A DNA stretch of 37,271 bases, taken from IMG/VR virus record IMGVR_UViG_3300036826_000113, positions 1-37,271 of that record. One strand, written 5' to 3'. Shown one piece after another: positions 2,559 to 37,271 of this stretch (its first letter is position 1; every line of letters begins with the position of its first letter). The notes under the pieces were generated by a model, which was given only the letters and a program-made list of their open reading frames with translations, was not told the origin of the DNA and did not search any database. The stretch is from a virus. A program made the translations under genes and the position numbers.

Positions 2559-5204
2559 ATGGCGAGCAGTGAAGTCGTCACCATTACCCTCACCGCCAAA
2601 GACGGCGCCTCCCAAACCTTTAAAGCGGTCGGCAAATCGGCCCAGGACATGGGCAAACAGATCGACGACGCCGGCAAGCAGGCGAGCAGCATTAGCGATC
2701 GCTTTAACGCCGCCGGCGCTCGTATCGGGCTCGCCTTTTCTGCCGCGCAAGGGGCGCTCACCGATTTCGCTCGCGCCGCCGCCGAAAGTGAGGCCAGTCA
2801 AGCCCGGCTCGATTCCGCGATTGAGAACACCGGGCACACGACCCTCGAATATACCGACGCCCTCAACCGGGCTAGTGCCGCCGCGATCCAGCTCGGCTTT
2901 GACGACGAGGACGCGGCCGATAGCATCGCCAGCTTAACGACGGCGACCGGCGACGCCGCGACCGCGATCGACGATCTGTCGCTGGCCGAGGACATCGCCC
3001 GAGCGCGCAAGATTTCGCTGTCGCAGGCGACCAATATCGTCATCGCCGCCGAGCAAGGGCGGATGGGGGCGCTGCAACGCCTCGGGATCCAACTCGACGA
3101 CAACGCCAGCCGTGAGGAACGGATGGCGGCGCTGCAGCAGAAATTCGGCGGCCAGGCCGAGGCCTATAGCAAAACGACCGCTGGTGCGATCGACCGATTG
3201 CGCGTTGAATTCGGGAACCTCGAGGAGCAGGCCGGGGCCACGTTCGGCAGTCTGCAGCCCTTCATTGCGCTGCTGCCCGGGCTCTCGGTCGCCTACTCAA
3301 GCACGGCGACCGCGGTCGGGGCGCTGATCCCGCAATTCAACAACGCTGAGGAAGCGGCGACCCTGTTCGGGGTCGCCCTCGGCCCGGCCGGTCTGGTCGC
3401 CGGCGCCGTGGCCGCGACCGCCGCCCTGACCTACTTGATCGCCACGAGTGAAAACACCTCGCACGCCATCGACGCCGCGAACGCCTCCACCGAAAGCCTG
3501 AGCGGCACCATCGCCCAGCTCGCGGCAAGCGGGCAGCCGACTGATTGGGCGAAGCAGGTCGAGACGAATTGGGCGCGGGTTGCCGCCGAAGGCGCCGAGC
3601 TCAACGACATCATGACCGAGATCAGCAACTTGCCGCCCTTTGCCGATCCCCAATTGCCGGAAGTCAAAGAGCTGCAAGATCGACTCTCGGCGCTGAATAC
3701 GCACTTTCAATTGACGGATGACCAGATCAATCAGGTCAGCGGCGACCTGGAAACGCTCTTTAAGAAACCGGGGCTCGACACGCGCGCCCTCGGCGAGGAT
3801 CTTGATTTTTACTTTCAGCAATTGGAATCGGGTCAGGCGACGAGCGAGCAGTTTGTCGACTGGCTCGATACCACCGTCGCCAAGTGGTATGAGTACGCCA
3901 AGGGTGGCGACCGGGCGCGCTACATCGGTGATCAGGTCGCGGCCTCGGCCAAAGGCATCACCCAGGCATTCTTCGGGCTGAACGCCCAGATCGCCGACTA
4001 TGCCGCGGTCCAGGCGCAAGCAGACATCGCCGCCGCCCGCTTCCTCAATACCGTCGGTGGCTCGGCGTTCGACCAGCTCAATACCCAGGCGACCGAATAC
4101 GCCACCATTCAGGCCCTGATCGCCAGTCAAGCCGCCCATAACGCCGATGTGGTCGGGCGCAATGCTGAAGCCCAGCTCACGGCGCAGACCGACGAGCTTG
4201 CCAACATCCAGGCGATGATCCTGGCCCAAAAAGAACTGAATGCGGAGAAAGCCAACTACGCCGCGTTTGCCGGGATGCAGGTCCAGGCCGGCGATCTGAA
4301 CGACCTGATCGCCCACAACCAGAAGATCAAAGAGCAGCAGGGCGCTTATTACGCCCTCGCCGACGGGATCACCACCGCCAACGAAGCCCAGGCCGCGTTT
4401 AAGCAAACCCAAGACGGCATCATCGATTCGCAGGAGCCCTACACCCACCAGCTCAGCGAATACCAGACGCAGCTCGGCTATATCACCGACGCCGTCGATC
4501 TCCTCAATCAGCGCCAGGAAGAGGGGCAAACGCTCACCAAAGATCAGCAGCAATTCCTCGACGACGCCACCGCGGCGCAACAACGCCTCCAAGGTGGGAC
4601 CGAGGACGCCACCCTGGCCCTCGGCGAGCAGGCGTTGCAGTACGCCGAGAACATGAAGATCGGCGATCAACTGAACCAAAACATGAGCGATAGCACCGGC
4701 GCGACCACAGCCCTGACCTCGACGATCAACGACCTGATCGCGGCGCTGCAAGGCATCCCCGGCTACGTCAAATCCTATATCGAGGTCGATTCGACCCAAG
4801 CGGCAAATAACGCCGCCTACATCAAGCAGCAACTCGACGCGCTCAACGGCCGCACCTCTTACGCCAGCGTCGTGATTCAGAGCTACTACACCGGACCAGG
4901 CGTCGGCTTTACCACGGGTGAGCAGAAGCTCGGCGGGATCATCCCGAGCCCACGCGAGATCGGTCGCGCCCAGCACGGTGCGGCGCTCACCGGGTACTCG
5001 TGGGTCGGCGAGGGCGGGCCGGAACTGATCTATGCGCCCGGGGCGCGCGTGCTCCCCCATACGGCGAGCGTGATGAGCAACAAGGGGCGCGCGGCCGACG
5101 CGCAGCCGGCCTTCATCAATCGCGGCACGATGAATATCTACCCGCGTGATTTCGACGACTTTTGGAACAAGATGCGGGCCTATCAATTCGGGGTGAACCG
5201 GTAA
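2559..5204 (+). CDS. Tail tape measure protein
   Basis: This 881-residue protein is the longest in the head-to-tube part of the tail module and directly follows the chaperone region. It is Ala/Gln-rich with long helical stretches. Near its C terminus (about residues 813-835) it has the WVGEGGPELIYAPG signature typical of siphovirus tape measures. It sets tail length and is probably passed into the cell at infection. At roughly 0.15 nm per residue the tail would be about 130 nm. The N terminus shows a coiled-coil pattern. The start is preceded by GAGGGA at 2548-2553. The stop overlaps the next ATG (TAATG). No soluble peptidase or transglycosylase motif was recognised inside it. Confidence 0.93.
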   Translation: MASSEVVTITLTAKDGASQTFKAVGKSAQDMGKQIDDAGKQASSISDRFNAAGARIGLAFSAAQGALTDFARAAAESEASQARLDSAIENTGHTTLEYTDALNRASAAAIQLGFDDEDAADSIASLTTATGDAATAIDDLSLAEDIARARKISLSQATNIVIAAEQGRMGALQRLGIQLDDNASREERMAALQQKFGGQAEAYSKTTAGAIDRLRVEFGNLEEQAGATFGSLQPFIALLPGLSVAYSSTATAVGALIPQFNNAEEAATLFGVALGPAGLVAGAVAATAALTYLIATSENTSHAIDAANASTESLSGTIAQLAASGQPTDWAKQVETNWARVAAEGAELNDIMTEISNLPPFADPQLPEVKELQDRLSALNTHFQLTDDQINQVSGDLETLFKKPGLDTRALGEDLDFYFQQLESGQATSEQFVDWLDTTVAKWYEYAKGGDRARYIGDQVAASAKGITQAFFGLNAQIADYAAVQAQADIAAARFLNTVGGSAFDQLNTQATEYATIQALIASQAAHNADVVGRNAEAQLTAQTDELANIQAMILAQKELNAEKANYAAFAGMQVQAGDLNDLIAHNQKIKEQQGAYYALADGITTANEAQAAFKQTQDGIIDSQEPYTHQLSEYQTQLGYITDAVDLLNQRQEEGQTLTKDQQQFLDDATAAQQRLQGGTEDATLALGEQALQYAENMKIGDQLNQNMSDSTGATTALTSTINDLIAALQGIPGYVKSYIEVDSTQAANNAAYIKQQLDALNGRTSYASVVIQSYYTGPGVGFTTGEQKLGGIIPSPREIGRAQHGAALTGYSWVGEGGPELIYAPGARVLPHTASVMSNKGRAADAQPAFINRGTMNIYPRDFDDFWNKMRAYQFGVNR

Positions 5205-14466: not shown

Positions 14467-15665
14467 CGTGGTGGGTGCGGCTCGACTTCGGCGACGATCC
14501 GGCGACCGGCGTGCGCGTCCGACCATATGTGCTCGGCGAGACCGAGCGCGCATGCCGACAAAAGGCGATCGCCGAGCTCGAGAAACATCGCACCGGGCGC
14601 TATCGCAAACCGGATGGCACGACGGTGGCGAGTTTCTGCGAGCAATATTTGACCTATGCGGAGGAGTTGCTCGCGGCCTCGACCATGATCTCGTACCGCT
14701 CGGCGATCAAGTGCTACATCGTGCCCTATCTCGGGAACGTGAAATTGCAAGAGGTCACCGAACCGGTGATCGCCGAATGGAGCGACTGGATGCGGGTCGA
14801 GCGCGCGCTGTCGGTGCCGACGCGGCGGGCGGCGCGGAGCAAACTGCATCGCATCATGGAACAGGCGCGCGAATGGCAGGTGATCGAGCGCAACCCGGTG
14901 ACCGCGGTGAAACCACCCAAAGCGCTCAAGCGCGAGCGCGATTTCCTCGACGAGGAGCAAACCAGACGCCTGCTGGCCGCGACGCGCGGTCACCGCTATG
15001 AGGTCTATTTCGTGCTTGGCTTTGCCACTGGCATGCGCCGCGGCGAATTGCTCGGCGCGCGCTGGGATGATCTGCGCTTGCACGGTGACGGCACCGGCGA
15101 GATCCGCGTGGTCGAGCAGCTCAAGAAAGCCAAGACGAGTTTCGCCCGCGGTGGGCTCAAAACGCCGACGAGCTCGCGGGTGATCCCGTTGCCGCCCGGG
15201 GTCGCCGACCAGCTCAAACGCTTTCGCGCGAAGGACAAGGCCGAGCGGCTGAAACAGCCCGGCTGGAATCCCGATGGCTACATCGTGACGAACACCAAGG
15301 GCGGTCATACCTGGCCCAATGCGATCGACCAGGTGACGCCGCGGTTTCTCGCCAAAGCCGGGATCGAACGCTTTACCAATCACACGATGCGCCATACCTA
15401 CGCCACGATGCTCGAGAACGACGGAGTGCCGCAGAGCCAGATCCAGGCGCTGCTCGGGCACGCGAGCTACCGCGTCACTGAGATCTACACCCACGCCGAT
15501 CGGGCAAAGTTTGGGGCGGCGGTCGCGGTCCTCGGGCCGCTCTTTTCGCCGGCGTCATTAGGCCAAAAATGGCCCAATGAACTTTTTTGGCCTAATGACG
15601 GCCTAATGGAGCAAGAGATTGCGGACAATCGCGATGTCGTGTTGCATGAAAAAACCGCGCCATGA
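14421..15665 (+). CDS. int: Tyrosine integrase
   Basis: This 414-residue site-specific recombinase integrates the phage at attP/attB. An N-terminal arm-binding domain (about 1-65) and a SAM-like core-binding domain (68-165) precede the catalytic domain. Catalytic residues are R206 (TGMRRGEL), probably K247 (GGLKTP), H321 and R324 (HTMRH), H347 (LLGH) and the nucleophile Y356 (IYTHA). The last 45 residues are unusual: their DNA contains a 17-bp inverted repeat and copies of GGCCTAATG, so the gene end appears to overlap the attP region. A terminator hairpin contains the stop codon. Confidence 0.95.
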   Translation: MAIIPKKRENKDGSITWWVRLDFGDDPATGVRVRPYVLGETERACRQKAIAELEKHRTGRYRKPDGTTVASFCEQYLTYAEELLAASTMISYRSAIKCYIVPYLGNVKLQEVTEPVIAEWSDWMRVERALSVPTRRAARSKLHRIMEQAREWQVIERNPVTAVKPPKALKRERDFLDEEQTRRLLAATRGHRYEVYFVLGFATGMRRGELLGARWDDLRLHGDGTGEIRVVEQLKKAKTSFARGGLKTPTSSRVIPLPPGVADQLKRFRAKDKAERLKQPGWNPDGYIVTNTKGGHTWPNAIDQVTPRFLAKAGIERFTNHTMRHTYATMLENDGVPQSQIQALLGHASYRVTEIYTHADRAKFGAAVAVLGPLFSPASLGQKWPNELFWPNDGLMEQEIADNRDVVLHEKTAP

Positions 15666-15825: not shown

Positions 15826-15904
15826 GTGGTGGGCCATTGTCCCGAAGCGTTTGGCCTAATGGCGGCCTAATGGACCGGCCCATTAGGCCAAAACTAACAT
15901 AATG

Positions 15905-16493: not shown

Positions 16494-16820
16494 ATGAAGG
16501 AAGTGATCGAGACCACCGCGTCGTTCATGACCTTGACCTACGCCGCGCTCGGCCAAGCCGAGATCGTCCTCAACGAAGCGAATCAGACGCTGACCGATTT
16601 CCTGATCAACTTGCTTTATCAATGTGGATTTCACGACGAGCCCGTGACGCTCGCCGCCGGCGGCAGCGCGCACTGCTTCGAACGCGAGATCGACGGCACG
16701 ATCGAGCAGGTGATTCTCCGCTGCAAACCTCGCGTGACTACGATAAATGTGCTACAATCAACATCGTCTGAGGGTGGCTTGGACGATGGCGAATGGTGGC
16801 GGAGACAGTTTTCACGATGA
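16494..16820 (+). CDS. First early-operon protein, unknown function
   Basis: This 108-residue protein begins MKEVIETTASFMTLTYAALG after a GAGG site. The N-terminal 60 residues are helical; CGFHDEPVTLAAGG and EREIDGTIEQVILRC follow. The longer open frame to 16377 is discarded because it crosses the promoter region. The 3' end contains promoter copy P1 and its stop overlaps the ATG of the next gene (ATGA). I recognise no family. As the first gene of the rightward operon it could be an early regulator, but nothing shows this. Confidence 0.6.
   Translation: MKEVIETTASFMTLTYAALGQAEIVLNEANQTLTDFLINLLYQCGFHDEPVTLAAGGSAHCFEREIDGTIEQVILRCKPRVTTINVLQSTSSEGGLDDGEWWRRQFSR
16737..16758 (+). promoter_or_regulatory. 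Repeated promoter P1
   Basis: One of four closely matching 22-base elements (ACTACGA, then AAATGTG, then a -10 hexamer, here TACAAT) with a TG one base before the -10. It lies inside the end of the upstream gene and points at the Rad52-like gene. Confidence 0.6.
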
Positions 16821-17413
16821 CGGAACGCGCGCAATTTGATCCGAGTAAATACCTGACACGAGTCGGGAAGGGTGATAGGGCGGCCGATTACCTCGAGGTG
16901 AAATGGCGCCTCGTTTGGCTGCGCGATGTCGCGCCGGATGCAACGCTCGATACCGAGCATATCCGGCTCGATGACATCGCCGCCATTTTCAAGGCGACGG
17001 TCCAGCTGCCGAGCGGCGGCCGCGCCACCGGCTACGGCAATTGCTCGGCGGAGGAGTTCCCCGATTACATCGGTAAGGCTGAGAGCGTGGCGATCGGGCG
17101 GGCGCTGGCGGCGCTCGGCTTCGGCACCCAATTCGCCGCCGATTTCGTCGAGGGTGGCAAGCCGGCCGAGTCGCAGGTGCGGCGGTCCGGCAATGTCACG
17201 CCGATCGATCGGAACACTGGGCTGCTCGCTGGGAAAGCGTTGCATGATCTGCTCAAAGCGGCGAGTGCGAACGGGTGGGGCCGGCCGGCGGTCGAAACCG
17301 AGGCCCGGCGACGCTTCGGCGAGGCAGATCTGACCAATCTCACGATCGCGCAAGGCGACGAGCTCGTGACCTGGGCGACGGCGCCGCGGCAAGCGGCCGC
17401 CGGCAAGCGCTAG
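16817..17413 (+). CDS. Putative ssDNA-annealing protein (Rad52-like)
   Basis: This protein is 198 residues from the ATG in the ATGA overlap; an upstream in-frame ATG at 16793 would add eight residues. The N-terminal 115 residues contain KYLTRVGKGDRAADYLEVKWRL in two blocks and later AESVAIGRALAALGFGTQF, a motif pattern widespread in phage recombination genes related to Rad52/RecT-type annealing proteins. The C-terminal region (about 135-198) is a separate small helical domain. Annealing proteins support recombination and replication of phage DNA. A VRR-NUC nuclease encoded nearby would be a natural partner. Promoter P1 lies 58 bases upstream. Assignment to the Rad52 superfamily is from pattern memory and needs a profile search. 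Confidence 0.5.
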   Translation: MTERAQFDPSKYLTRVGKGDRAADYLEVKWRLVWLRDVAPDATLDTEHIRLDDIAAIFKATVQLPSGGRATGYGNCSAEEFPDYIGKAESVAIGRALAALGFGTQFAADFVEGGKPAESQVRRSGNVTPIDRNTGLLAGKALHDLLKAASANGWGRPAVETEARRRFGEADLTNLTIAQGDELVTWATAPRQAAAGKR

Positions 17414-17433: not shown

Positions 17434-17470
17434 TTCGCTCATAAGCGAGTATGTGATGCTGATGAGCGAA
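17434..17470. promoter_or_regulatory. Palindromic operator, copy 2
   Basis: TTCGCT-CATA-AGCGAG (17434-17449) is followed by TA and, 15 bases on, an AGCGAAGG half-site (17465-17470). The layout matches copy 1 at 13507-13534 including the trailing half-site. It would control the replication operon downstream. Confidence 0.6.
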
Positions 17471-17590
17471 GGTGTGGCCGGCGCCTGGTGTGCAGAAGCG
17501 CCGGCCGGGATCGAGGGGGAACGGGAGATCGGTCGAGGGGGACCGAGCACATCACCGAGGAAGTTGGGGCCTGATGACGTACGCGCGTAG
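17456..17590 (+). CDS. 44-residue leader ORF
   Basis: This short ORF begins within the operator region and encodes a Gly/Glu-rich peptide (MLMSEGVAGAWCAEAPAG onward). Its end overlaps the next small ORF out of frame. There is no strong ribosome-binding site. It may be a leader peptide or chance. Confidence 0.25.
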   Translation: MLMSEGVAGAWCAEAPAGIEGEREIGRGGPSTSPRKLGPDDVRA

Positions 17591-17684
17591 TGTCGCAGAT
17601 CAGTCGAGCGCTGTGAAGCAGCAGCAGGTGAAACCATCACCTGCGCGAGGCGTTCCTCCGAGCATGCGACGGCGACGACGATGA
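17574..17684 (+). CDS. 36-residue basic leader ORF before replication gene
   Basis: The ORF encodes MTYARSVADQSSAVKQQQ and a basic end (SMRRRRR); its stop overlaps the initiator gene start (ATGA). It contains the CAGGTGA-N5-TCACCTG inverted repeat. It may serve mainly to couple translation to the initiator gene. Confidence 0.4.
   Translation: MTYARSVADQSSAVKQQQVKPSPARGVPPSMRRRRR
17625..17643. promoter_or_regulatory. CAGGTGA/TCACCTG inverted repeat
   Basis: A perfect 7-bp inverted repeat with a five-base centre lies 38 bases before the replication initiator start. The same half-site is repeated inside that gene at 18055-18098, suggesting that the initiator binds both and controls its own synthesis. 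Confidence 0.6.
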
Positions 17685-18457
17685 GCAAAACCGACGAGCA
17701 TTCACAGCTCCGCGACGGACGGGGCTTTTGGTTCATCATGCTTGAAATCGAGCTCGTGCGAAACGGGTATTGGGAGGCGATCAGCCTGGCCGCCAAGGCA
17801 GTCTATGTCGTGCTGGTTTCACACGCCAATCGTGATTGGCAGGCCTTCCCCGGGGTCCCGCTGATCGCCAAGGAAGCAGGGCTCACGCAGCGCAGCGTGA
17901 TCACCGCGATCAAGGATCTCGAGGCGCATCAGCTGATCTCGGTCGAGCGCCACGCGATCAACCACAAGGGCAGCCGCTACACCATCCTGCCGATCGGCAA
18001 ACATCGCGGCAACGACAGTGACAACGACAGTGAAATAACTTCACGTGAAAATACTTCACCTGACGCTAGTTCACCTGAACAGGTGAAAATACTTCACCCT
18101 AAGCAAAACCAATTAAGTAAAGCCCAAGACGCGCTCGCGCCTCCGCTTGGGGCGCCGATGCCATTTCCGTTACCCAGCGACTTCGCGGTAACGACAGAAC
18201 TGCGCGCCGCCGTTGCCGATCTCAATCTCTCGGCGACCGTGATCGATCGCGAGACGGCGAAGTTCGTCGACCACTACACCGGCACCGGTGAGTGCTCGCT
18301 CAACTGGCCCGGCAAATGGCGGAACTGGATGCGCCGGGAAATTGATTTTCGCGGACCTCGCCGCCGCGGCCGGCGCACCGAGGCCGAAAGCGATCCGGTC
18401 GATTGGGACAAGTACAAGGGTGACGGCTACCTCAAGGTGCCGGGGAGGCGCTCATGA
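17681..18457 (+). CDS. Replication initiator (lambda O / DnaD-like layout)
   Basis: This 258-residue protein has an N-terminal winged helix (about residues 30-105: LAAKAVYVVLVSHANR, then LIAKEAGLTQRSVITAIKDLE and a wing KGSRYTIL), the common HTH_36-type domain of phage replication proteins. A low-complexity Asp/Ser linker (about 110-140) is encoded by an iteron-like repeat array. The C-terminal 110 residues contain WPGKWRNWMRREIDF, a pattern common at the end of phage O-like proteins. It would bind the origin and recruit the host helicase or its loader; no helicase or loader gene was recognised. The start is in an ATGA overlap. DNA-binding regulator is the alternative. Confidence 0.75.
   Translation: MSKTDEHSQLRDGRGFWFIMLEIELVRNGYWEAISLAAKAVYVVLVSHANRDWQAFPGVPLIAKEAGLTQRSVITAIKDLEAHQLISVERHAINHKGSRYTILPIGKHRGNDSDNDSEITSRENTSPDASSPEQVKILHPKQNQLSKAQDALAPPLGAPMPFPLPSDFAVTTELRAAVADLNLSATVIDRETAKFVDHYTGTGECSLNWPGKWRNWMRREIDFRGPRRRGRRTEAESDPVDWDKYKGDGYLKVPGRRS
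18010..18122. other. Candidate replication origin: iterons inside the initiator gene
   Basis: Two direct copies of AACGACAGTGA (from 18010 and 18022) are followed by TTCACGTGAA (18040-18049, a perfect palindrome), TTCACCTGA (18055-18063), TTCACCTG-AA-CAGGTGAA (18070-18087) and TTCACC (18093-18098). Next comes a stretch that is AT-rich for this genome (18099-18118). Iterons plus AT-rich DNA within the linker of an initiator gene is the arrangement of lambda ori in gene O. Confidence 0.65.
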
Positions 18458-23051: not shown

Positions 23052-23273
23052 ATGCCCAGCGCGATCACGTTGCTGGGGCGCTTACGTCGATTCCCGCCAG
23101 AAATGCGGTACCGCGAGGTCGAAGTGATTCTCACGGCATTCGGCTGGAAGCATGATCGGACCAACGGCAGCCATCACGTCTGGGTGAAACCCGACCGCGA
23201 TCCACTCGTCATCGTGGAACACGGCAAGATGGTCAAGACGGTCGATCTGAAGAAAATCGACAAGCAGCTCTAG
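23052..23273 (+). CDS. hicA: HicA-family toxin (mRNA interferase)
   Basis: This 73-residue protein matches HicA (YcfA-like): a helix with REVEVILTAFGWKHDRTNGSHHVW, a strand pair DPLVIVEHGKMVKTVDLKKI, and the conserved G-S-H segment with the likely active-site His at residue 41. HicA has a dsRNA-binding-like fold and cleaves mRNA when free of HicB. Toxin-first gene order is typical. It has its own promoter and does not overlap the early operon. The pair would stabilise the prophage or act in phage defence. Confidence 0.88.
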   Translation: MPSAITLLGRLRRFPPEMRYREVEVILTAFGWKHDRTNGSHHVWVKPDRDPLVIVEHGKMVKTVDLKKIDKQL

Positions 23274-23347
23274 GCTCGGCGGGGAGGGGGTGAGGACCTC
23301 CCCAATGAGGAACGTGCGCAGGGCAGACGACGATAGGAGGACCCGAA

Positions 23348-23848
23348 GTGCCACGCCAGGAGGTAGGACTGGAAGAGGCACTGCACAAGCAGTATCCGTT
23401 TCAGGTGATCGCCGAGACGAGCGGCGGTTGGTCAATTGTTTTTCCGGACGCGCCCGGTGCGGGCGCCTATGCTGAGAGTTGGGACGAGATCGGACCAAAG
23501 GCGCATGAAGGGCTCATGCTTTGGTTGACCGTGACCGCGGAGCTGGGTCGAGCCCTGCCTGAACCGACGAAAGGGGGCGAGATTCTGTATTCGGCGACTG
23601 GCCAAGCCAGACTCGATGCCGAATCAGCCCCGTTCGATCCGGCGACGCAGGAGCTCTTCTCGGTCCGTGATATTGCGGCTCTGGCCGGGATTAGCAGCGG
23701 TCGCGTGCGCCAGATTGCGCTCGCCAAGCACATCGGCCAGTTGATCGGCGGCGCCTTGATCTTCACGCACGAAGATCTCGCCGCGTTCATGCATCGTCGC
23801 TCTGCTGGGCGACCACCAAAGGTGACGACCTCAGCGGTCGCTGACTAA
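23348..23848 (+). CDS. hicB: HicB-family antitoxin with C-terminal HTH
   Basis: This 166-residue antitoxin starts at GTG, seven bases after a strong AGGAGG (23335-23340). Residues 14-65 form the HicB partial RNase-H fold (YPFQVIAETSGGWSIVFPD and WDEIGPKAHEGLMLWL). Residues about 105-150 form a helix-turn-helix (FSVRDIAALAGISSGRVRQIA) of the excisionase/MerR-like type, unlike the ribbon-helix-helix or XRE domains of the best-known HicBs. It would neutralise HicA and repress the hicAB promoter. The 74-base gap after hicA and the strong site suggest surplus antitoxin production. Confidence 0.85.
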   Translation: MPRQEVGLEEALHKQYPFQVIAETSGGWSIVFPDAPGAGAYAESWDEIGPKAHEGLMLWLTVTAELGRALPEPTKGGEILYSATGQARLDAESAPFDPATQELFSVRDIAALAGISSGRVRQIALAKHIGQLIGGALIFTHEDLAAFMHRRSAGRPPKVTTSAVAD

Positions 23849-25996: not shown

Positions 25997-26010
25997 GTTT
26001 CACGTGAAAT
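25997..26010. promoter_or_regulatory. parS-like palindrome
   Basis: GTTTCACGTGAAAT contains the 12-bp palindrome TTTCACGTGAAA and matches the chromosomal parS consensus (TGTTTCACGTGAAACA) at about 13 of 16 positions. It is intergenic. No ParB gene was recognised in the window. Confidence 0.5.
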
Positions 26011-26024
26011 GGTCTGGTTGAGTC

Positions 26025-26225
26025 ATGGCCGATCGGTATGTCGTTGAGATCGCGCATCGCGAGCGCGGAACGCTCCATGTCACGCACCACGCCGACGAGG
26101 GCTCGGCGAAAGCGCAGTATGACCTGCAGAAGGACACCTACGGCGAGACCCCCGACACCTATGTGGTGCTGTGGGATCTCGAGCGCGCCCAGGCCGTTTA
26201 TGACACCCGACGAGATGAGGATTAA
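26025..26225 (+). CDS. Small protein of unknown function
   Basis: This 66-residue protein starts MADRYVVEIAHRERGTLHV after GGTTGAG. It shows a beta-alpha-beta pattern (TYVVLWDLERAQAVYD). The stop directly abuts the next gene. No family recognised. Confidence 0.6.
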   Translation: MADRYVVEIAHRERGTLHVTHHADEGSAKAQYDLQKDTYGETPDTYVVLWDLERAQAVYDTRRDED

Positions 26226-36629: not shown

Positions 36630-37099
36630 TGCCGTTGCCCGAGCTGCGCGATCGCCTCACCCAGGTGCTGATGCAAACGCCGCCGGTTCCCGTCGACTAC
36701 GGCACGACCCCGTCGGAGCTCAGCCTGAGGATCGTCTACCCCTATCAGCCGAAGCAACCACCGGAGATCGTGCCGGCCGCGTGGCTCGGCGATAGCACGG
36801 CGACGATCGAACAGGCGGGCTTAGAAATCTGGACCCATACCCTGCCGATCACGGTCGCCGTCCATGACGCCGGCGTCGCCGAGATGGAACGGGCCGCGGT
36901 CGAAGCCTTTCTCTACGCGATCGTCGCCCAGCTCAGGCGCCACGTCGCCTTGACGGACACCGACGTCTTTCTGGCGGTCACGGCCTATGAGGAGGGCGTG
37001 ATCGCCTTCCAGGGCAAGACCTACCGCGGATTCACCTTCACCGCCGAGCTCACCGAGAAATTCGAGGTCGCGGCCGAGTACTGGCCGCAGGCCGTGTAA
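36629..37099 (+). CDS. Tail terminator protein
   Basis: This 156-residue protein lies directly after the gp10-like gene and, on the circular map, just before the small acidic and tube genes. It has an N-terminal helix (LPELRDRLTQVLMQT), a strand-rich middle (GLEIWTHTLPITVAV), a helix (ERAAVEAFLYAIVAQL) and strands at the end, as in lambda gpU-type terminators that cap the tail tube. The family assignment rests on position and size. Confidence 0.75.
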   Translation: MPLPELRDRLTQVLMQTPPVPVDYGTTPSELSLRIVYPYQPKQPPEIVPAAWLGDSTATIEQAGLEIWTHTLPITVAVHDAGVAEMERAAVEAFLYAIVAQLRRHVALTDTDVFLAVTAYEEGVIAFQGKTYRGFTFTAELTEKFEVAAEYWPQAV

Positions 37100-37271
37100 G
37101 GACAGAAGCCGATGAGTGAGGAACAGACGCCGGCCGAGGCGCCGGCCGAGGATACGCCGGTCGAACGGGCGAGCGCGCTCTACTACATCGGCGAAACCGA
37201 TCCGGTCACGGGCGAGCCGATCCAATACGTGCTCGGCGTGCCGTCGCGCGATCTCGACGAGGCCGCTATCG
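37095..37271. repeat. Terminal redundancy, right copy
   Basis: It repeats bases 1-177 with substitutions at 37222, 37263 and 37266. It contains the stop of the tail terminator gene and the start of the small acidic gene. Confidence 0.9.
37112..37271 (+). CDS. Partial second copy of the small acidic tail-module gene
   Basis: The first 53 codons of the gene at 18-326 are repeated and run off the window end. Of three substitutions, one is silent and two change codons near the end (Val to Ala and Asp to Ala in the DEVDI segment). It is an artefact of circular opening rather than a second gene, unless the genome truly carries direct terminal repeats. Confidence 0.8.
   Translation, partial: MSEEQTPAEAPAEDTPVERASALYYIGETDPVTGEPIQYVLGVPSRDLDEAAI

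Follow-up and report, generated by a model that had tools for sequence, protein, structure and literature searches.

This locus raises the question of where a temperate-looking phage begins to replicate its DNA, and of whether its initiator limits its own expression with the same motif that it would use at the origin. We analyzed the whole record of 37,271 bp, referred to here as the window. The first 177 bases (1-177) recur as the last 177 (37095-37271) with three mismatches. Because of this imperfect terminal repeat the genome is very probably a circular assembly of ~37.1 kb, with the mismatches indicating slight strain variation. The window contains genes for a tyrosine integrase, an excisionase-like protein, terminase and portal, along with early genes, and the phage appears to be temperate. 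The gene directly after the initiator gene encodes a Cro/C1-type HTH protein. No helicase or loader family was recognized among the early-region proteins scanned; in particular, there was no P-type helicase loader beside the initiator or elsewhere among the early genes scanned.

Several other features of the genome were noted. The gene upstream of the initiator (16793-17413) is strongly conserved in the nearest relative phage (L002, described below), at ~76% nucleotide identity over 265 bp, and has PHROG matches of unknown function only; judging from its place among the early genes of the operon, it may encode a protein for recombination or single-strand annealing. Repeats (TTAGGCC / GGCCTAATG, within 15570-15660) are present at the integrase gene's 3' end, and an inverted repeat with the arm CCTAATGG lies just downstream of the gene, at about 15866-15890. 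Together these are probably attP arm or core sites. A dyad, TTCGCTCAT-N19-ATGAGCGAA, is found at 17434-17470, about 210-250 bp before the start of the initiator gene, and possibly serves the phage repressor as an operator. Positions 23052-23848 encode a probable HicA/HicB-like pair, in which the HicB-like member was assigned by a PHROG match and the small upstream protein by eye. Searches with the integrase as bait found no relatives. With the terminase as bait, bacterial genomes gave matches in Streptomyces, Singulisphaera and one Chloroflexota genome at 40-51% identity, which is too distant for naming a host, and only one ORF in these bacterial loci reached the initiator profile, weakly.

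The initiator gene and its two folded domains are as follows.

17681-18457, plus strand: replication initiator gene, 258 aa (winged helix-turn-helix, disordered linker, DnaT-like C-terminal domain), assigned from PF13730, PHROG and an AlphaFold2 model

17780-17938, plus strand: winged-helix DNA-binding domain, aa 34-86, the proposed iteron reader (PF13730 match; pLDDT >90)

18167-18349, plus strand: C-terminal helical domain, aa 163-223, DnaT-like (PF17948 in homologues; structural matches)

The N-terminus of the protein matches PF13730 (HTH_36) with 44.8 bits, against a cut-off of 25. The whole protein matches PHROG families for replication initiation proteins and for O-like proteins, the O-like matches being weak (E 1.5e-7 and 4e-5). 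Neither PF04492 (Phage_rep_O) nor PF06970 (RepA_N) gave a match at E ≤ 1, and NCBIfam returned nothing for this protein. The AlphaFold2 model has a confident winged helix (residues ~30-102), a disordered stretch of low confidence (109-150) and a confident helical domain (163-223). In comparisons of the winged-helix fold, the N-terminal domains of staphylococcal RepA proteins ranked at the top (Z 10.0), level with a number of other winged helices. The structures 4pql, 4pt7 and 5kbj were at or near the top (Z 10.0-8.9, rmsd 4.2 over 97 residues), with scores within 1 Z of those of unrelated winged helices.

The C-terminal domain in the window is too divergent to match the Pfam DnaT model (PF17948), and its likeness to DnaT is therefore inferred at the level of the family. 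PF17948 was matched by 15 of 49 homologous C-terminal domains (best 1.6e-6). In a profile search of the PDB with the C-terminal domain, DnaT structures accounted for six of eight weak matches (E 0.04-0.35). The best structural matches were the single-stranded DNA-binding domains of DnaT, with Z values of 7.5, 7.3 and 5.5 that fall below the guide value of 8 for certainty; the next unrelated structure had a Z of 4.1. Foldseek alone gave no significant match for this domain, and the link to DnaT rests on the profile matches of relatives and a second-look structural alignment. By analogy with DnaT, the domain would bind single-stranded DNA and recruit a helicase.

The DNA that encodes the linker between these two domains contains the following elements.

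18011-18098, unstranded: iteron array within the linker coding sequence, with spacings of 15, 15 and 23

18011-18021 and 18023-18033, plus strand: direct repeat of AACGACAGTGA (two copies) at the array's 5' edge

18030-18044, unstranded: iteron GTGAAATAACTTCAC

18045-18059, unstranded: iteron GTGAAAATACTTCAC

18060-18074, unstranded: degenerate iteron CTGACGCTAGTTCAC

18083-18097, unstranded: iteron GTGAAAATACTTCAC, which with the CAG before it gives CAGGTGAA at 18080

18088-18122, unstranded: AT-rich tract 3' of the iterons, proposed unwinding element, AT-rich at the same position across 44 homologues

The first-pass annotation had reported repeats and an AT-rich stretch in the linker of the initiator gene and a matching inverted repeat in its leader. 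We found each of these where it had been placed, with the repeats in excess over chance. The sequence TTCACNTGA occurs at 18040, 18055 and 18070, and the repeat unit is better, and most economically, described as a 15-bp palindrome, GTGAA-N5-TTCAC. This palindrome occurs three times in the window, always in the array (18030, 18045 and 18083), compared to an expected 0.025 occurrences. Similarly, TTCACSTGAA was found three times (0.05 expected). The repeat score within the initiator gene was 38, compared to a mean of 8.6 after shuffling of synonymous codons with protein and codon usage kept (p = 0.005, the lowest value possible in this test). AT content peaks at 18021-18120, which at 62% exceeds every other 100-bp stretch of the window. 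The assignment of the repeats to the linker was also confirmed, as residues 111-140, the segment encoded by the iterons, are disordered in the AlphaFold2 model; the putative origin thus occupies a part of the gene with a disordered protein product. As a caution, TCACCTG shows a mild excess outside these sites too, with 13 copies in the whole window and 2.6 expected.

Single-protein searches of IMG/VR and GTDB contigs found no close relatives of the initiator, and conservation was therefore tested on distant homologues. These were gathered via alignment and then by iterative search, yielding 52 non-redundant members with both domains; PF13730 was matched by 36 of 47 homologues. Using the protein-preserving shuffle, we detected a significant DNA-level repeat cluster in 45 of the 52, and the peak of the cluster was in the linker, which makes up 31% of the gene, for all but one of these (44 of 45). 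The motif itself differs widely from homologue to homologue. Because all 44 linker clusters contain repeat pairs that are out of frame or inverted, the clusters are best read as selected at the level of DNA. These pairs and the shuffle led us to reject a repetitive peptide as the sole source of the repeats. AT content rises by 9.3 ± 1.7 points at ~60 bp 3' of the center of the iteron cluster (44 homologues). The same procedure applied to lambda O, as a positive control, recovered the annotated iterons and their AT-rich flank. Among 16 other genes in the window, three passed the repeat test at p ≤ 0.01, and the test alone is therefore not specific. One of the three, the integrase 3' end, looks like a real att-type repeat cluster, and a modest false-positive rate cannot explain either the number of homologues with a cluster or the bias of the clusters toward the linker.

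From these patterns we consider it very likely that the linker holds an intragenic iteron origin, with the layout of lambda and pSK41, in the gene of an HTH_36-DnaT-like initiator. This layout is already known, and the origin, while well supported, is of an ordinary kind; the interesting parts are the leader dyad and the covariation between motif and winged helix described below. Two other readings of the array were weighed. The repeats could be regulatory operators or low-complexity coding repeats, with the origin elsewhere, such as at a turn in GC skew. The linkers are indeed low in complexity, some unrelated genes score as repetitive too, and cumulative GC skew has its minimum near 9.5 kb and its maximum near 24 kb, with significant trends and nothing at 18 kb. 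However, repeats driven by the peptide are removed by the protein-preserving shuffle, the repeat pairs are out of frame or inverted, family members have an AT-rich tract after the array, lambda O behaves alike in the same test, and the origins of pSK41, pPR9 and lambda are proven at this position (PMC5703833, PMC7466680). We regard an origin elsewhere as quite improbable. The first-pass annotation had proposed an inflection of GC skew at the origin as a check. That inflection is missing, and AT skew also has a significant trend with no turn at 18 kb. We did not take this as a refutation. Nearly all genes are on one strand, and most of them have a negative GC skew at third codon positions; skew therefore has little power in this 37-kb phage, and we judged it uninformative, neither refuting nor supporting an origin at 18 kb.

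The array could instead serve plasmid-like maintenance of the prophage, or control of its copy number, rather than lytic replication. There is precedent in a mycobacteriophage RepA that supports prophage replication and is dispensable for lytic growth (PMC7157519), and the leader dyad of the phage resembles plasmid copy-number control. Against this, the tyrosine integrase and excisionase-like gene suggest a prophage that is integrated, and the proteins that were scanned revealed no partition genes. A role confined to the prophage state seems very improbable.

Across the homologues, similarity of the motif followed identity of the winged helix when C-terminal identity was held constant (partial r 0.59, Mantel p 0.0005). 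For 29 dereplicated members, the values were 0.44 (p = 0.0002) for the winged helix and 0.11 (p = 0.058) for the C-terminal domain. Since the linker has one of these domains on either side, physical linkage alone would not favor the N-terminal one. The covariation thus supports recognition of its own iterons by each winged helix, as judged from sequence comparison. The nearest relative phage, IMGVR_UViG_3300036835_000339 (L002), is collinear with the window, has a terminase that is 90% identical, and has 73-76% nucleotide identity in the genes flanking the initiator. Its initiator, however, is undetectable by blastn and 33% identical in amino acids, with iterons of its own (GGGTGACA) in the same linker. 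The N-terminal domain and the origin appear to have been exchanged as a unit between the two phages; the difference may reflect replacement or fast divergence, both of which fit. A distant homologue (L144, positions 3100-3700) has nearly the same iteron core as the window (TTCACC/GGTGAA, about ten copies) and a winged helix that is 33% identical, making it useful for working out the recognition code.

We propose the following model for initiation. The N-terminal PF13730 winged helix would bind the palindromic 15-bp iterons at 18011-18098, and the clustered initiators would then melt the AT-rich DNA 3' of the array. The DnaT-like C-terminal domain would coat the exposed single strand and bring in the host replicative helicase, after which theta replication would follow. 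Recruitment from the host is proposed because no phage helicase or loader was recognized among the early-region proteins scanned. The first-pass annotation had expected the same on that ground, and the DnaT-like character of the C-terminal domain agrees with its expectation. In a less certain step, the initiator would also bind the dyad in its own leader, an inverted repeat of half-iterons, and would thereby lower its own expression. Two sites outside the array share the iteron core.

17624-17644, unstranded: leader inverted repeat GCAGGTGA-AACCA-TCACCTGC, which contains the iteron core and lies ~37 bp before the initiator's start codon; candidate operator for the initiator

25998-26009, unstranded: TTTCACGTGAAA, 12-bp palindrome and copy of the TTCACGTGAA iteron core, in the intergenic gap just before the ORF at 26025

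The leader repeat had been described as CAGGTGA-AACCA-TCACCTG at 17625-17643, and it extends by one base pair on each side to 8-bp arms. The suggestion that the initiator represses itself through this motif is plausible but more weakly supported than the origin. In its favor, the arms of the dyad are the iteron core, a dyad of the form AGGTGA-N3-9-TCACCT occurs once in the window, in the leader, and not at all in 40 simulated windows, and hits in the leader were above those in background windows (p = 0.003). Autorepression in the manner of plasmid F is, by this comparison, a fair reading, at about an even chance or slightly better. The competing view is that the dyad is not bound by the initiator but is an RNA hairpin or an operator for a different regulator, and that it resembles the iterons by accident or as a relic. 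Several observations fit this view. The dyad folds in the leader RNA as a hairpin with an 8-bp stem and a 5-nt loop, although the full-length leader RNA does not exceed shuffled sequences in stability (z -0.96). It also lies within a short ORF (17472 or 17574 to 17684) that ends in RRRRR and overlaps the initiator start codon by ATGA, suggesting translational coupling. Leader copies were no commoner among 43 homologues than expected (16 sites; 12.1 expected), and L002, the nearest relative, has none. The inner spacer between the GTGA/TCAC cores is 5 bp in the dyad and 7 bp in the palindromes of the array, and a scan for the sigma-70 consensus upstream of the initiator recognized no promoter. 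We place this competing view somewhat short of an even chance; if it is correct, autorepression falls and the origin reading stands. The leader copy is a mildly unusual addition to an ordinary origin layout.

The palindrome at 25998-26009 has a core identical to that of the iteron at 18040 and is a possible remote initiator site; L002 has no site of this type at the matching place. A more ambitious scheme would have one core serve in two modes, with the array starting replication and the leader palindrome, perhaps along with the palindrome at 26.0 kb, shutting off the initiator's own gene. We hold this two-mode switch to be rather unlikely. If true, it would combine a lambda-style intragenic origin and F-plasmid-style autorepression in one protein whose DnaT-like tail loads the host helicase directly.

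The analysis has several implications. Scanning the linkers of HTH_36 initiators for short repeats offers a simple and testable rule for finding origins in many uncultivated phages. Because motif and winged helix covary, sequence data can be used to test ideas on the recognition code and on compatibility. For phages that lack a helicase or loader of their own, the DnaT-like tail points to a possible way of taking over the host machinery. Should the leader copy prove to be an operator, this phage would offer an example of plasmid-style restraint by an initiator on its own supply.

We compared the locus with known replication systems. The first-pass annotation had called the origin lambda-like, which is right for the layout and wrong for the family. 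As in lambda O/ori-lambda and the Stx phages (PMC7466680), inverted-repeat iterons lie in the middle of the gene and an AT-rich tract adjoins them on the 3' side. In contrast to lambda, there is no PF04492 match and no P-type loader gene, an extra iteron-like dyad is present in the leader, and the iterons are 15 bp rather than 18-19 bp. The phage origin thus works like ori-lambda in its layout and lacks two features expected of a lambda O family member. Microbacterium phage DelaGarza gp45, the replication protein of Microcystis phage Mvi-Yong1342-1 and about 50 IMG/VR homologues have the same order of winged helix-turn-helix, linker and C-terminal domain, with iterons in the linker, but each has its own iteron motif and leader copies are not above chance. 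The initiator gene of DelaGarza, which is only distantly related, is adjoined by an annotated helicase loader gene, whereas none was recognized in this phage among the early genes scanned.

In plasmid F, RepE dimers bind inverted repeats between the promoter and the gene and thereby cause autorepression, and RepE also binds the origin iterons (PMC13028717). The phage has an inverted repeat of iteron halves before the start of its initiator gene, with no sigma-70-like promoter recognized upstream. RepE, however, is a Rep_3-type initiator with an origin outside its gene, while the phage origin is inside the gene and its operator is a candidate only. The C-terminal domain of E. coli DnaT forms filaments on single-stranded DNA and marks the site of helicase loading (PMC13377028). 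The phage domain probably resembles it in fold and, at the level of the family, in sequence; unlike E. coli DnaT, it is fused to a putative iteron-binding winged helix.

The nearest precedents are the Rep proteins of the pPR9/pSK41 type. They differ from the phage initiator in having a DnaD-like C-terminal domain that contacts DnaG, where the phage domain is DnaT-like, and in control by antisense RNA, where the phage has a candidate protein-binding dyad; the phage protein also lacks PF06970 (RepA_N). The Rep protein of pPR9 has a pfam13730 N-terminal HTH that is related to a phage replication protein, and the pPR9 mini-replicon replicates; in pSK41 the Rep boxes are located in the middle of rep, within the stretch that codes for a dispensable linker; and in pPR9 the pfam13730 N-terminus and the origin have replaced those of pSK41 as one block of ~500 bp (PMC5703833). 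The difference between this phage and L002 appears to be of the same type. The phage counterpart of that linker, residues 109-150, is predicted to be disordered, which is compatible with a dispensable segment. The phage initiator shares a PF13730 N-terminus with pPR9 Rep and iterons in the linker with pSK41, and its predicted N-terminal fold may be like that of the solved RepA domains of pSK41 and pTZ2162, which scored close to unrelated winged helices.
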